Shown piece by piece: positions 21,674-26,912 of a stretch of DNA of 26,912 nt. The stretch spans positions 1 through 26,912 of IMG/VR virus record IMGVR_UViG_3300030061_003386; one strand, written 5' to 3'. The DNA comes from a virus. The position numbers and the translations under genes are program-made. Position 1 is the stretch's first letter; the number at the start of each line of letters is the position of its first letter. Under the pieces are notes generated by a model that saw only the letters and a program-made list of their open reading frames with translations, did not search any database and was not told the DNA's origin.

Positions 21674-22075
21674 ATGCCAATGGATGTTATGGATAAACAA
21701 CAGATGATGGAAAAATTATATGATGATTATTTTGAAAATAAAGAATGGTGGGTGTTTTTAACACCACATAATGCAAATAGTTTTATGGTAGATTTAGAGG
21801 ATAAATATTTTTCAGGTTCTAATGGTAAATATTTTCATGCAATAATATATCACCCATACGGAGCAATATATATGGCTAAAAAATCACATATAACTAGAAA
21901 ACAAATAAACCAAGTATTTCATAATACTTCTAAAAGTCCTGATGTACCTAATGCAAATACAGGGGATTGTTTTCTTATGACTATGGAAGACTCTGATAAA
22001 GAACGTGATGAAATGTTTTATGCAGATGTTATGTATGGATTACAGGATGTTTTACAAATAAGAAATGGAAAATAA
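21674..22075 (+). CDS. Unknown acidic protein (133 aa)
   Basis: Begins MPMDVMDKQQMMEKLYDDYF and continues 'NKEWWVFLTPHNANSFMVDLEDKYFSGSNGKYFHAIIYHPYGAIYMAKKSHITRKQINQVFHN'. The mixed alpha/beta pattern with several aromatic and His residues could be an enzyme or anti-host protein, but I see no known catalytic motif. An ATATTACAC box at about 21648-21656 lies roughly 22 nt upstream. In-frame ATGs at codons 3 and 6 are alternative starts. Function unknown. Confidence 0.6.
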   Translation: MPMDVMDKQQMMEKLYDDYFENKEWWVFLTPHNANSFMVDLEDKYFSGSNGKYFHAIIYHPYGAIYMAKKSHITRKQINQVFHNTSKSPDVPNANTGDCFLMTMEDSDKERDEMFYADVMYGLQDVLQIRNGK

Positions 22076-22107
22076 ACATTTATATATGGGGGTAAATTAA
22101 ATTAAGC

Positions 22108-22160
22108 AAGGGGTTGGTAGCACCTGTGCGATGCCAAGAGTATCTCAAAGTCTACCAAAA
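22108..22160 (+). ncRNA. Candidate compact structured RNA
   Basis: A TTTATATATG box (about 22079-22088) directly follows the preceding stop codon, but only a 10-codon frame comes after it. From the expected start near 22108, TTGGTAG (22114-22120) and CTACCAA (22152-22158) close a perfect 7-bp stem. Inside are CAC/GTG and GAG/CTC mini-stems, giving a three-way-junction shape. It lies between convergent genes. Expression is not proven. Confidence 0.4.
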
Positions 22161-22177
22161 TAAATTAAAGTCTTAAA

Positions 22178-22327
22178 TTACCAATAACTTCCTTTATCAG
22201 AACAATCTAAATGGCTACCACAATTCGGACAGATCATGTGACAGGCGGTAAACTTGTTCATGGTAGTTTCGCACCGTGGACATACTATTTCCTTACAATC
22301 GTCACAGGTGTGGTATATCTTAGTCAT
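22178..22327 (-). CDS. Cysteine-rich zinc protein (49 aa), third of a minus-strand trio
   Basis: MTKIYHTCDDCKEIVCPRCE, then 'NKFTACHMICPNCGSHLDCSDKGSYW'. CDDC, CPRC and CPNC pairs plus two more Cys suggest two zinc sites. Its start overlaps the end of the upstream gene by 8 nt, so it is co-translated with it. The longer plus-strand frame over this region is a shadow. Confidence 0.65.
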   Translation of the reverse strand: MTKIYHTCDDCKEIVCPRCETTMNKFTACHMICPNCGSHLDCSDKGSYW

Positions 22328-22439
22328 GTTTCAAGTCTTCGACCACCCTGCATTTTAGGCATAATGTTGCACCCTCAATTAGTTCAGTTTTGCAGTTTGA
22401 TTCATAACACTTGTGGCAAAGCCCGATAAATGTTGTCAT
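22320..22439 (-). CDS. Micro zinc-ribbon protein (39 aa), second of the trio
   Basis: MTTFIGLCHKCYESNCKTEL, then 'GATLCLKCRVVEDLKHD'. CHKC and CLKC form a zinc ribbon. The ATG overlaps the previous stop as TAATG. Confidence 0.6.
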   Translation of the reverse strand: MTTFIGLCHKCYESNCKTELIEGATLCLKCRVVEDLKHD

Positions 22440-22594
22440 TACTTATTGCTATGATACTGTACTATTAAAAGTATTAGTGTGAGAAACTGACACCTAGAAC
22501 AATCGTCATATTCATATACTGTTTTACAATGAGAAAAGATCTTCTCTGTTAATATACTAGGATCGAACTCCCTTTTAAATGGATTTTCGAACAT
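22439..22594 (-). CDS. Small protein with CxxC motif (51 aa), first of the trio
   Basis: MFENPFKREFDPSILTEKIF followed by 'SHCKTVYEYDDCSRCQFLTLILLIVQYHSNK'. It has a CSRC pair plus one upstream Cys, and a hydrophobic stretch near the end that could be a membrane or core helix. An AATAAATTAA element around 22608-22618 lies upstream of the ATG. It starts the operon that ends at 22178. Confidence 0.5.
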   Translation of the reverse strand: MFENPFKREFDPSILTEKIFSHCKTVYEYDDCSRCQFLTLILLIVQYHSNK

Positions 22595-23109
22595 TTTTTT
22601 GCTACGTTAATTTATTACTTAAACATTACCCCCAATAGATTTATATATAAGTTTACTAGAAAATTATAATTTTTCATATATATACATTGATTTATAAATC
22701 TATTTTCCTTATTCCTAATCGGATATATGTGGATCTGAATGGCACTTCAATATAAGTGTTGCTCGTGGAAATTTGCTCGATCGTGCCTAATTTTGGTGCG
22801 ATCAAATATTTTGAGCGTGATATATCGTAAATTTCATGCGATCAGGCTATGCTAGGCACGAAATATTGTGATCGCTATGTCGATCATTGTCATATAGGCA
22901 CGATCGCATGTCATATAATTTTGGGCATTTTACCGTTTTGTGCCTGATCGTATGGATATTTTTTTGGTGATCATAGGGCATTGGGCGTGATCCCATATTG
23001 AGGGCTTTAAATAGTATATATGCTATTTGAATATTTTTTTGCTGTTTTTGTTAAAGTCTACATTTTCAGGCACGAAATATGCAGATCGTAGCATTATGAA
23101 AATTTTTTC

Positions 23110-23171
23110 TTAGAACTAGTGATATATTTTAACACTAGATTTAGAACTAGTGATATATATTGGCACTAGAT
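23110..23171. repeat. 31-bp tandem duplication with internal inverted repeat
   Basis: Units 23110-23140 and 23141-23171 are identical at 28 of 31 positions. Each contains CTAGTG and CACTAG as an inverted pair about 11-12 nt apart, so each unit looks like a dimeric protein-binding site. Confidence 0.75.
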
Positions 23172-23593
23172 ATAATTTTTTTTGGGATTGTTTTTGCAAA
23201 AAATTTAGGGTTTAAATTACCCTTTAACATAACATTCCTATCAAATAGATTTTTTTAGAAATACAAAACATATTTATAATCATTTTTTGGCTGATCCTAG
23301 ATCGCATGGATTAGGCGTAACAGATTTTAGATTTACAAACCTTTATTAAGGGTGTATTTGCCCGATCCTAGAGGTAAATTTTGTTAAACCATTTTGTCAA
23401 TATTTTTGATATATTTTAGATCATGAGCTTTAATTTTATTATAAATCAACGGTTTATATTATGTATCATATTTCTATAATAGTTTATTCTAAATTTTTAT
23501 GTTTTTCTTAGTGGTATTTTATCAATTATTTTTACCCCAAAAATCAATTATAATCAATATATTGTATTATGATATATTTTACAAATAGAGATT

Positions 23594-23701
23594 ATGCAAA
23601 AATACACAAAAGCAGAAATTGCATTAATTGATCGTTTTACCTTTGATCAATATATGGATTTTTGCGAATATTTAGTAAAACAAATTGAGTCTAAAATTTA
23701 G
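23594..23701 (+). CDS. Microprotein inside the repeat region (35 aa)
   Basis: MQKYTKAEIALIDRFTFDQY followed by 'MDFCEYLVKQIESKI'; helical. A GATATATTTT box (23571-23580) is about 20 nt upstream of the ATG, and a T-rich terminator follows the stop. It is the only credible coding unit in the 1.6-kb region. Function unknown. Confidence 0.5.
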   Translation: MQKYTKAEIALIDRFTFDQYMDFCEYLVKQIESKI

Positions 23702-23704
23702 ACT

Positions 23705-23736
23705 TTATTTTTTCTTTTTTTCTTATCTTATTTTTT
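23705..23736 (+). terminator. T-rich terminator after the 35-aa gene
   Basis: Three T-runs separated by single C or A interruptions begin 4 nt after the stop codon. Confidence 0.55.
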
Positions 23737-24222
23737 GCAAAAATTCCCAAAAAATAATTATAAATCTGTAGGCGTGAAAATTTAGTCTCACTAAATGATT
23801 TATAATAAAATTAAGTAATACTACTTTTATTGAATTAAGCATGGTATTCATGGTTAAATTATGCTCTAAAAGCGATCAAATCCTTAAAAAAAATACAAAA
23901 GAATTATATATCAACAAAACAAGGGGTTAAAACTTCTAGGCACAAAATTTAAAAAATAATTATAATAAAATCAAAAAAATCGATAATCTGATCCATGCTT
24001 TGAAGATTTATAAATGGCTTTAACTTAACATTCCTAACAAAATTATATTATGAAATAGATCGCTTTTTTCTTTTGTGAACTTTAGAATTTTTAATTATAT
24101 GAAAATAATATAATTTTAAAATTATCCCCGAATTGGATCAAAAATTCACGCCTGATATATTTTATTTAGGCACAAAATGGATCTAAGAAATATATATTAA
24201 CTAGATATATAATTAATTTGAT

Positions 24223-25473
24223 ATGAGTCAATCACAAAACATACAAAAATTCAGTATGAAAAATGTTAGTGATTATTTAGTTTCTAAAGGTTACACACCA
24301 GAAACCAAAAAATCACAATACAGCGTTTTAGCTGAATTATATGATATGGTTGTTATTCGTGGAATTGAAGAAAATTTCAATACTATGATACAACGATTGA
24401 ATATAGGAAAATCTTTGAAAAATTGTCAAACTAGACAAAGTATTATCAAAAATTTTCTTATCTATCAAAGTGGATTATCCACAAACCCCGCCCAAATTTC
24501 CCAAAATGGCAGTAAATCTTTTGAGGATACAAAAAAAGAATTTTTAGAGAATTTGCTAAAATTCGTTAGACAACTACACAAAGAGCAAAAAATGAATAAC
24601 TGTAACAAGTTAGTTAGTTTTTACACTCGTGAAGGTAAACAATTAGCAGATTACTTTGGATACATTCCAGAAAAAACCCTTTTAGAAACGATTCCGGCAA
24701 GATTCAACAAAAAAGAATCTGATTCTAAATTCGTTTCAGAATTGGTAAAACAATTTTTCCCAAATCCAGAAAGCAAAAAAACATGGTTAGATCTACCACA
24801 AAAAGGAGAATTTTTGAACTTTGTTAAAAAGTCAAATCCAAACATGGTTTTAATGTCTAAAGCTGACATTTTAACACAATTCCCAGATATTGATCCAATT
24901 TGCTTAAATCCAGAATTGGCAATTCCAAAAAAGGATCCAAAATACACATGGCTAGAAGGTGAAAGAGATATGATCACTGCTTCAATGCTTTTGAATGAAT
25001 CTCTATTCATTACAGGCGTGGCAGGAATTGGCAAAAGTTCTATGTTAGCCCAATGGTGTTATGAAGAATCATGCCCCTATGTGAGAACTAGTTGTAATTA
25101 TTCAGCAGATCCGCAAGACAACTACTTTAAGCAAAGCTTCAACGGTCAAAAAGTCCAATACAAAATGATCAACATGGGATTAAGTTTCATGTTTGCAAAT
25201 ATGATCGGAATTGTTTTGAATAGTCAAGAAGAAATTAATTCTTCTAATGAAGCAACAATGATTTCAATGCATAGTGCCACGGATTCAATAAAATCTCTAG
25301 ATACTGAAATCGGCAATTTATCCCTTAATGAAGGTTGTAAAATGCTAATCGCAGGATCTGGAAATATTGGTTATGGTCAAGGGGATTTAACACCTGCTTT
25401 GCAAAGTCGATTAATGCCTTTTGACAAAAAAGAACCAAGCGATCGATTTATTTTAGAAAATATTTGGACTTAA
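24223..25473 (+). CDS. CobS/MoxR-like AAA+ ATPase with helical N-terminal domain (416 aa)
   Basis: Residues 250-416 form an AAA+ module of the CobS/MoxR type. Walker A is GVAGIGKS (265-272), followed by 'VRTSCNYSADPQDNYF', and sensor-1-like 'LIAGSGN' (375-381) and 'ALQSRLMPF' (392-400) with the likely Arg finger. The Walker B position is unusual: 'IGIVLNSQEEINS' (328-340) has Glu-Glu where Asp-Glu is normal. The protein ends soon after the Arg, so the C-terminal lid is missing or very short. Residues 10-85 are helical and vaguely like the core-binding domain of tyrosine recombinases. CobS-like ATPases occur in tailed viruses of marine Thaumarchaeota and in cyanophages. MoxR-type ATPases usually work with a VWA protein, and one follows at 25726. 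Confidence 0.7.
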   Translation: MSQSQNIQKFSMKNVSDYLVSKGYTPETKKSQYSVLAELYDMVVIRGIEENFNTMIQRLNIGKSLKNCQTRQSIIKNFLIYQSGLSTNPAQISQNGSKSFEDTKKEFLENLLKFVRQLHKEQKMNNCNKLVSFYTREGKQLADYFGYIPEKTLLETIPARFNKKESDSKFVSELVKQFFPNPESKKTWLDLPQKGEFLNFVKKSNPNMVLMSKADILTQFPDIDPICLNPELAIPKKDPKYTWLEGERDMITASMLLNESLFITGVAGIGKSSMLAQWCYEESCPYVRTSCNYSADPQDNYFKQSFNGQKVQYKMINMGLSFMFANMIGIVLNSQEEINSSNEATMISMHSATDSIKSLDTEIGNLSLNEGCKMLIAGSGNIGYGQGDLTPALQSRLMPFDKKEPSDRFILENIWT

Positions 25474-25495
25474 AAAATCCATATATTTTTTAAAA

Positions 25496-25520
25496 TATTT
25501 TTTTATTTTTTATTTTTTTC
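25496..25520 (+). terminator. T-rich terminator after the AAA+ gene
   Basis: Runs of T with single A interruptions begin about 22 nt after the stop codon, giving a typical archaeal termination zone before the next promoter. Confidence 0.5.
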
Positions 25521-25581
25521 AAGTTTTAATTTTTCATATAATTTTTTTCATATAATTTTTAAAAAATTCCCAAATTTGGGA

Positions 25582-25599
25582 GATAAAAAAGATTTATAA
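25582..25599 (+). promoter_or_regulatory. Promoter element, first of two identical 18-bp copies
   Basis: GATAAAAAAGATTTATAA here is repeated exactly at 25686-25703. The second copy lies 23 nt before the VWA gene start and is clearly its TATA region. This copy would start transcription near 25622, where no ORF begins. It follows the palindrome CCCAAATTTGGG at 25569-25580. Confidence 0.6.
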
Positions 25600-25620
25600 G
25601 TAGTAAAGATCCTCTATAAA

Positions 25621-25676
25621 GTTTGGTCAAAAATTCCGATCAAGGAAAATTGAAAAAAAAATTGCGTTTTTTTTCT
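25621..25676 (+). ncRNA. Candidate small RNA between the AAA+ and VWA genes
   Basis: It begins about 22 nt downstream of the promoter copy at 25582-25599 and ends in an 8-T run (25667-25674). TTGGTC (25623-25628) and GATCAA (25638-25643) can pair (one G-T) around a 9-nt loop. The unit has its own promoter and terminator but no reading frame of useful length. It may regulate the downstream VWA gene. Confidence 0.45.
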
Positions 25677-25685
25677 AAGTCCACG

Positions 25686-25703
25686 GATAAAAAAGATTTA
25701 TAA
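25686..25703 (+). promoter_or_regulatory. Promoter of the VWA gene (second 18-bp copy)
   Basis: GATAAAAAAGATTTATAA ends 22 nt before the ATG at 25726, placing the TATA box about 26 nt from the start codon and predicting a leaderless mRNA. Confidence 0.7.
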
Positions 25704-25725
25704 ACAAAGCATTGGTAATTCTAGC

Positions 25726-26595
25726 ATGGTAGAAATTCAAAATAACAAATCAGCATTAGGATCTTTTGATCGCTATGTGTTAAATGAAGTATCAGCTGAT
25801 TATGTTAGAAGATATGTTAATCCTGAAAATCGTTATGAAATTAACCAAAAAAGAATAAATGATTTTGATCAGGTTTTAGAGGAATTAAAAGGAGATCCTA
25901 AATTTTTAAGATCCAATGTTGGTGATCTTCATATTCCTCATGTTGTAGATTTTAAAGCAAATAAAACAAATTTGAAAGTTTTTAGAAAAACTTTGATTCA
26001 ACAAAGCGGTTTAGTTATTTTATTAATTGACGTTAGCGGATCAATGAACGGTTTTAAAATTGATACTGTTAGAAATTTAGTTGCTGATTTAATGACTAGT
26101 GCTGAAAATATCCCAAAAATAGAATTAAGGGTTTTCTGCTATGCGGGTGATTGTTATTATGATTATGATAACTTAAAAGACAATGGAGATCCTACAACGG
26201 AAGATCTTTTATTAATTCATGAGATCGAAAAAGTCGAGGATTGTGATTTAATTACTCCTTTAGGAACTACACCTACTGACAAAGCTATTCACTATTTGAT
26301 TAACAAATTTGAAGAATCCCATAAAAATAAAACTTTGTTGGTTTTAACTGATGGATCTCCTTCTAGTTATACAGTATCTTACCAAAGAGCATTATTAGAA
26401 GTTAAGAAAGTTTTGATAAAAGCAGAATCTGCAAAGTTTAATATTTTTGGTTGTGGTTTTTGTGTAAGTGATTATTTAGACAAAGCTATGGAAAATTCAT
26501 TTAGAGGAAATTATATCAACTTGTGGACTAGTCAAGATATTGAAAAATATTTATTTTCAGCATTAGAGGACTTTGTAAGGAGTATTAAAAATTGA
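25726..26595 (+). CDS. von Willebrand factor A (VWA) domain protein with intact MIDAS (289 aa)
   Basis: The VWA domain (about 94-285) binds a divalent metal through MIDAS: D102-x-S104-x-S106 in 'LIDVSGSMNG', a Thr in 'PLGTTPTDKA' (about 181-182), and D209 in 'VLTDGSPSS'. All key residues are present. Residues 1-90 are helical and charged and probably bind a partner. In MoxR/CobS-type systems the VWA protein presents the substrate to the AAA+ ring, and the ATPase gene lies just upstream here. CobT joins an acidic segment to its VWA domain. Here the acidic Ser-Glu protein is a separate gene that starts at a TTG overlapping this stop codon (TTGA). The target of the system is unknown. Confidence 0.75.
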   Translation: MVEIQNNKSALGSFDRYVLNEVSADYVRRYVNPENRYEINQKRINDFDQVLEELKGDPKFLRSNVGDLHIPHVVDFKANKTNLKVFRKTLIQQSGLVILLIDVSGSMNGFKIDTVRNLVADLMTSAENIPKIELRVFCYAGDCYYDYDNLKDNGDPTTEDLLLIHEIEKVEDCDLITPLGTTPTDKAIHYLINKFEESHKNKTLLVLTDGSPSSYTVSYQRALLEVKKVLIKAESAKFNIFGCGFCVSDYLDKAMENSFRGNYINLWTSQDIEKYLFSALEDFVRSIKN

Positions 26596-26912
26596 CAGAA
26601 AACATACCACAAGGATTCACAAAAGAAAGTTTAGAAGAACTTAAACAAACTGATCCTGAATTTTATAATATACTTATGCAAGATTTTAAAACAGAAAATT
26701 CAGGATCTGGAAAATCTGATATTAAAGGCGATCTTGATATTGCAGAAAATATATCAGAAAATATATCAGAATCAGAATCAGAATCAGAATCAGAATTATA
26801 TGAATCTGAAATATATGAAGTATCTGAATCAGAATCAGAATCAGAATCAGAATCAGAATCAGAATCAGAATCAGAATCAGAATCAGAATCAGAATCAGAA
26901 TCAGAATCAGAA
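26592..26912 (+). CDS. Acidic Ser-Glu repeat protein, 5' part only (at least 107 aa)
   Basis: The frame opens after an in-frame TAA at 26586, and the first possible start is TTG at 26592, overlapping the VWA stop (TTGA). The N-terminus reads MTENIPQGFTKESLEELKQT if the TTG is read as Met; a charged stretch follows, then Ser-Glu repeats encoded by TCAGAA units. The frame is still open at the window edge, so its length and C-terminus are unknown. It is co-translated with the VWA gene and may be its acidic partner or extension. Confidence 0.6.
   Translation, partial: MTENIPQGFTKESLEELKQTDPEFYNILMQDFKTENSGSGKSDIKGDLDIAENISENISESESESESELYESEIYEVSESESESESESESESESESESESESESESE
26766..26795 (+). repeat. 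Tandem hexanucleotide TCAGAA, 5 copies
   Basis: Five exact copies encoding Ser-Glu, separated from the longer tract by a short non-repeat stretch encoding LYESEIYEV. Confidence 0.85.
26829..26912 (+). repeat. Tandem hexanucleotide TCAGAA, at least 14 copies, reaching the window edge
   Basis: Fourteen exact copies in frame with the Ser-Glu coding sequence, continuing to the last base. Such tracts change length by slippage and also break short-read assemblies, which may be why the sequence ends here. Confidence 0.9.

Follow-up and report, generated by a model that had tools for sequence, protein, structure and literature searches.

A diverged AAA+ ATPase–VWA gene pair and an adjoining charged-repeat gene in a probable archaeal tailed virus

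Genes for an AAA+ ATPase, a VWA-domain protein and a Ser-Glu repeat protein stand in a row at the end of a viral contig, raising the question of whether they represent a cobalamin-related CobS-CobT machine, a known kind of MoxR-VWA pair, or a new module. We analyzed the whole contig, IMG/VR record IMGVR_UViG_3300030061_003386 (26,912 bp, "the window"). The three ORFs of the original prediction were recovered (Table 1), the ATPase through viral family phrog_249, the VWA protein through PF00092, and the third ORF (ORF3) through its repeat array. The Ser-Glu repeat is real, but the ORF carrying it is incomplete, being cut by the contig end inside the repeat.

Table 1. Coordinates of the features discussed, in window positions
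Feature	Position	Strand	Description
Motif cluster AGGC(A/G)(C/T)(A/G)AA(A/T)	22854..24177	.	7/7 window copies; AT-rich, mostly non-coding
35-aa ORF	23594..23701	+	similar ORF at the same place in G033
Predicted AAA+ ATPase, viral CobS-like/MoxR (CbbQ/NorQ/CobS) group	24223..25473	+	416 aa; C-terminal ATPase core, no lid domain
Walker A GVAGIGKS	25015..25038	+	from the sequence itself; aligns with GQQGTGKT of G033
Walker B-like IVLNSQEEIN	25210..25239	+	E for D; longer by two residues than in G033 and HCTV-1 (profile alignment)
AT-rich spacer ATPase-VWA	25474..25725	.	252 nt; first 99 nt align to G033 spacer (71%)
TATA-like TTTATAAA	25697-25704		about 22 nt upstream of VWA start
VWA-domain protein, like C-terminal half of viral CobT	25726..26595	+	289 aa; complete MIDAS: DVSGS 26029-26043, GTTPT, LTDG
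Coupling region (putative)	26577..26595	+	ribosome-binding-like AAGGAG, then ORF3 TTG start overlapping VWA TGA stop
ORF3 repeat protein, incomplete	26592..26912	+	107 aa or more, running off the contig end; an N-terminal part without repeats leads into (Ser-Glu)n
(TCAGAA)n tandem array, 6-bp unit, encoding (SE)n	26765..26912	+	24 copies, far beyond chance; an assembled minimum, as contigs, the relatives' included, break here

The virus and its relatives

The head and tail genes of the window lie on the minus strand. The GenBank phage matches of its portal and MCP were solely Druskaviridae (HCTV-1, HCTV-5, HVTV-1, and kin), and the best phage matches of RadA were in the same family; the window therefore most likely derives from an archaeal tailed (head-tail) virus. 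RadA was not decisive for the host, its best cellular matches (36-39%) being scattered among archaea and the search patterns biased. An MCP scan of 84,980 species genomes returned no proviruses. We tentatively take the virus to be marine on the strength of IMG sample numbers. The label also leans on a clade described in PMC8651126.

Relatives were gathered through the MCP, giving 47 contigs, few of which reach the module locus. Contig 3300030202_003266 is 99.9% identical to the window and stops in the same ORF3 repeat. In the complete-looking relative G033 (IMG/VR 3300025889_000117, 63,203 bp), both ends (1-126; 63,078-63,203) fall within a single repeat of 15-bp units that encodes (EAEKQ)n, with in-frame coding sequence on both sides, so the genome is circularly mapped with the repeat in the middle of ORF3. 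G011, which shares 86% nucleotide identity with the window over 18 kb, ends in the reverse complement of the window repeat. These genomes are circularly mapped and about 63 kb long, their IMG/VR assemblies are split at the ORF3 repeat, and the window is a fragment of such a genome.

The ATPase and VWA proteins compared with CobS-CobT

The window ATPase matched nothing in Pfam above cut-off: AAA_16 covered the P-loop only (E 0.013), and AAA_5 gave no match. It did match phrog_249 ('porphyrin biosynthesis', E 1.3e-4), which also takes the G033 ATPase (453 aa, E 1.7e-18), HCTV-1 gp57 (2.3e-50), and HHTV-2 gp10 (1.4e-30). The G033 protein is a clear AAA_5 member (E 3.2e-16) with complete motifs. 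Of the AAA_5 core motifs (Walker A, Walker B, sensor 1, arginine finger), the window ATPase has Walker A and the Arg, and its Walker B is altered (LNSQEEIN versus LLDEGN in G033). The C-terminal alpha-helical lid, about 90 aa in G033, is absent: the window protein ends where the lid should begin, as it does in the near-identical contig. A two-sequence ATPase profile matched the solved structures of CbbQ (6e-15), CobS (8e-7), and NorQ (3e-5); by sequence comparison, the ATPase probably falls in the viral CobS-like/MoxR group, closer to CbbQ than to CobS. AlphaFold models were too poor to use (pLDDT 33 for the ATPase and 41 for the VWA protein).

The window VWA protein matched PF00092 over residues 97-250 (E 2.5e-9; 38 bits, with the cut-off at 23.8). 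The G033 VWA protein (297 aa) lacks the stretch holding the MIDAS threonine, which the window protein has. Judged by these motifs, the two viruses appear to deviate from the textbook pair at different points, the window in its ATPase and G033 in its VWA protein. The VWA profile aligned to the C-terminal halves of viral CobT from HCTV-1, HHTV-2, Kvothe, UBSmoodge, and Cantare with an hhalign probability of 97%, and the alignment takes in the stretch before the VWA domain while covering that half only. Viral CobT consists of an N-terminal domain, an acidic linker, and a VWA domain; the window protein corresponds to the last part alone. ATPase precedes CobT in HCTV-1; Gordonia phage Kvothe has this order too, but there three small genes separate the two.

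Could the pair then be a viral CobST helper that borrows host CobN to raise the B12 supply, as proposed for haloarchaeal Druskaviridae and Saparoviridae (PMC8651126)? Its ATPase falls in the same viral family as annotated CobS, and its VWA protein has the CobT likeness described above. The profile scores, however, lie hundreds of bits below the cut-offs for CobS (TIGR01650: G033 19 bits against 558, window none), CobT (TIGR01651: G033 12 bits against 759, window none), and the CobT/ChlD-like models in general (12-14 bits against 759 and 779). The CobT N-terminal domain and acidic linker are absent, and the solved structure of CbbQ is a better match to the ATPase than that of CobS. Furthermore, neither CobN (PF02514) nor the ribonucleotide reductase large subunit (PF02867) was found in G000, G033, G046, and G011, of which G000 and G011 are fragments. 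Because CobN and the reductase were not detected and the CobS/CobT scores are poor, a remodelling role is likelier here, and a B12 helper strikes us as improbable. With neither gene found in these records, the B12 benefit argued for Druskaviridae is not applicable in the same way. The expectation that the pair would be CobS/CobT- or MoxR-VWA-like, and no true cobaltochelatase, was thus supported, the CobN search covering four records.

Several known systems resemble the pair. Among cellular ones, CbbQ-CbbO, NorQ-NorD, and RavA-ViaA have a VWA partner as adaptor, and CbbQ and NorQ are among the nearest solved ATPases; these systems act on host enzymes, unlike the window pair, and the VWA partner is much longer in CbbO, NorD, and ViaA. 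Viral cobST of Druskaviridae (HCTV-1 gp57/gp56, HVTV-1) and Saparoviridae (HHTV-2) shares the ATPase PHROG and a VWA homologous to the window protein through the CobT C-terminal half. HCTV-1 also has the ATPase-then-VWA order, and in Druskaviridae the capsid, portal, and RadA genes are related as well. In contrast to viral cobST, where CobT has its N-terminal domain and acidic linker, the window has a separate VWA gene, preceded by the gene for a lid-less ATPase and a 252-nt spacer and followed by a probably coupled repeat gene.

In Acidianus two-tailed virus (ATV), the MoxR protein p618 binds the VWA protein p892 and the filament-forming p800 (PMC4124505); here too an archaeal virus has an ATPase, a VWA protein without a peptidase-like domain, and a third protein, which in ATV binds the ATPase. 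Unlike the window virus, ATV is a spindle-shaped virus of a hyperthermophile; the likeness does not come from sequence comparison, and PMC4124505 does not describe p800 as a protein of simple repeats whose gene is coupled to that of the VWA protein. The jumbo-phage MoxR-vWA pairs (group 2.2), proposed to act in virion assembly (PMC7824862), are likewise AAA+ and VWA gene pairs, but in these the vWA has a metallopeptidase domain fused at its N-terminus. Neighbouring AAA and VWA genes of haloviruses have been read as chaperone and adaptor (PMC7911831). The module had been predicted to be new; with viral MoxR/CobS-VWA pairs already published (PMC8651126, PMC4124505, PMC7824862, PMC7911831), it is not new in kind.

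ORF3 and its repeat

In the window, the VWA and ORF3 genes share 4 nt. In G033, the ORF3 ATG lies 2 nt past the VWA stop, with an AGGAG site. This arrangement suggests that the two genes are probably translationally coupled. The repeat is mixed in charge in G033, (EAEKQ)n, versus (SE)n in the window, and the ORF3 termini show no visible match between the two viruses. In relatives, ORF3 goes on beyond the repeat for about 50-70 aa to its C-terminus; in G011 this part reads ENENEKLYEFNNFFKTKIAKAVKKNIKVAFAFDSYIENKNEENYNKVLGMI, then a stop. By extrapolation from two related viruses rather than from one read, the window ORF3 would continue as in G011. A 150-aa ORF past the repeat is common to G011 and G033 (54%). 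Elsewhere in G033, a linker rich in EAEK, IEAEKMAKIEAEKLAQ, is found in the ATPase (L061 5203-6564) and resembles the EAEKQ repeat of ORF3 in composition; a coiled-coil contact with ORF3 is possible.

The original prediction held that the acidic part of CobT had moved into ORF3. In that case, ATPase, VWA, and ORF3 would rebuild a three-piece CobST machine. Composition speaks for a split-off linker, as the HCTV-1 gp56 linker has 38 net acidic residues per 60 and the window ORF3 reaches 26, and HHTV-2 CobT is already split over two ORFs (PMC8651126). Position and context do not: the CobT linker lies 5' of the VWA domain and ORF3 3' of it, the G033 repeat is of mixed charge, and ORF3 has non-repetitive ends of its own. 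No CobT N-terminal domain was found adjacent to the window VWA or ORF3, and the acidic tract occurs only in ORF3. Low-complexity sequence is no basis for testing homology. A CobT-linker origin is not supported beyond composition; we consider it unproven and give it little credence.

Conservation of the locus and its flanking DNA

The three-gene order was found in only two independent viruses, the window and G033. In G033, the ATPase, VWA, and repeat genes follow the window order between collinear flanking genes, and this is the sole independent relative with the pair. The predicted order was therefore recovered in viral contigs, but it is absent from G046 (59,854 bp, nearly a whole circle), which gave no AAA_5 or VWA match. 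In the module region (reverse complement 22469-24322), G046 has a GATase_6 gene next to a 246-aa ORF with no Pfam hit; the GIELEGNF motif of this ORF is reminiscent of amidoligases. G049 has neither VWA nor AAA_5 within the stretch covered. The module is thus accessory. IMG/VR scans with the ATPase and VWA proteins of the window and of G033, the two-sequence VWA profile, and the post-repeat ORF yielded no further lineages; tblastn against GenBank phages gave no match for the window ATPase, the window VWA, or the G033 VWA, and PADLOC gave no defence match for the window proteins.

Between the window and G033, amino-acid identity is 82% for MCP, 78% for RadA, and 71% for the portal, against 21% for the ATPase (over some 170 residues) and 24% for the VWA protein. 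The locus looks to have been inherited in place while its proteins changed fast. The same divergence would fit a swap site for decaying or fast-turnover accessory genes, at which the window ATPase, with its missing lid and altered Walker B, is already a non-functional remnant. The GATase_6 pair occupying the region in G046 also agrees with such turnover, as does the absence of VWA and AAA_5 from G046 and the covered stretch of G049. However, ORFs of 416 and 289 aa remain open, the window VWA retains its full MIDAS, gene order and the tight VWA/ORF3 junction are kept in both viruses, and the spacer past the ATPase stop is conserved. We judge decay to be unlikely. The spacer alignment after the ATPase stop (99 nt, 71%) scored 50 bits, versus a mean of 22 and a maximum of 43.7 in 60 dinucleotide shuffles.

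Other features of the non-coding DNA were observed. AAAAAAGATTTATAA, which is TATA-like, occurs twice in the spacer (25585-25599; 25689-25703), the second copy directly before the VWA start. The regions upstream of the G033 ATPase and VWA genes are alike, with GTGCCT 16-17 nt before TTGATTTATATTA. The counterpart of window 23247-23304 occurs three times in G033 non-coding DNA (59459-59624), upstream of the ATPase. The motif AGGC(A/G)(C/T)(A/G)AA(A/T) is nearly absent outside one region, which holds all seven window copies, eight of nine in G033 (59039-62004), and eight of nine in G046 (21429-27243 in window orientation). These copies are candidate origin iterons or regulator sites. The suggestion of a nearby origin accordingly fits this iterated motif as an origin or regulatory region, but the motif is also kept in G046, which has no module. 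The adjacent small RNA that had been predicted found no Rfam match over window 22000-26912.

A possible role for the module

Gene order, family-level homology, divergence, and patchy presence are established for this module. On balance, we somewhat favor reading it as a diverged accessory form of the AAA+ (MoxR/CobS-like)-VWA pair found in many tailed viruses, together with a probably coupled third gene for a small protein with a charged-repeat middle. The G033 gene order with its collinear flanks, and the VWA and ORF3 genes that overlap or abut at AGGAG-like sites, speak for this reading. On the sequence evidence, four points appear to count against it: the lid that AAA+ rings normally need is missing in the window, the G033 VWA is without its MIDAS threonine stretch, the order is known from two independent viruses only, and the ORF3 termini do not visibly match.

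For this accessory pair we infer, timing included, a mechanism in which the ATPase would form a ring, the VWA protein would dock on it, and the two would remodel or load a dedicated client in the course of infection, in the manner of cellular MoxR-VWA pairs. By analogy, p618 and p892 are thought to act so in Acidianus two-tailed virus. ORF3, presumably made in step with the VWA protein, would be the best candidate for a client or tether by virtue of its position and coupling. Because its core is altered (no lid, an odd Walker B), the window ATPase may turn over little ATP and serve as a scaffold; the G033 ATPase looks intact. More tentatively, the three genes might form one remodelling module, the AAA+-VWA pair acting on the co-translated, repeat-bearing ORF3 as its own client or tether. 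Since the ORF3 repeat is swapped between species while its place and coupling are kept, the pair would then have a linked, rapidly evolving partner.

The pair itself is known; what is new is a VWA protein stripped to the CobT C-terminal half and a probably coupled repeat protein that holds its place while its repeat changes. Viral AAA+-VWA pairs occur widely and are commonly labelled as cobalamin genes, yet Acidianus two-tailed virus is almost the only case in which something is known of their client. With its minimal VWA protein, its probably coupled partner, and neither CobN nor ribonucleotide reductase detected, this lineage offers a small protein set for finding that client, and it speaks against reading every AAA+-VWA pair as vitamin B12 metabolism.
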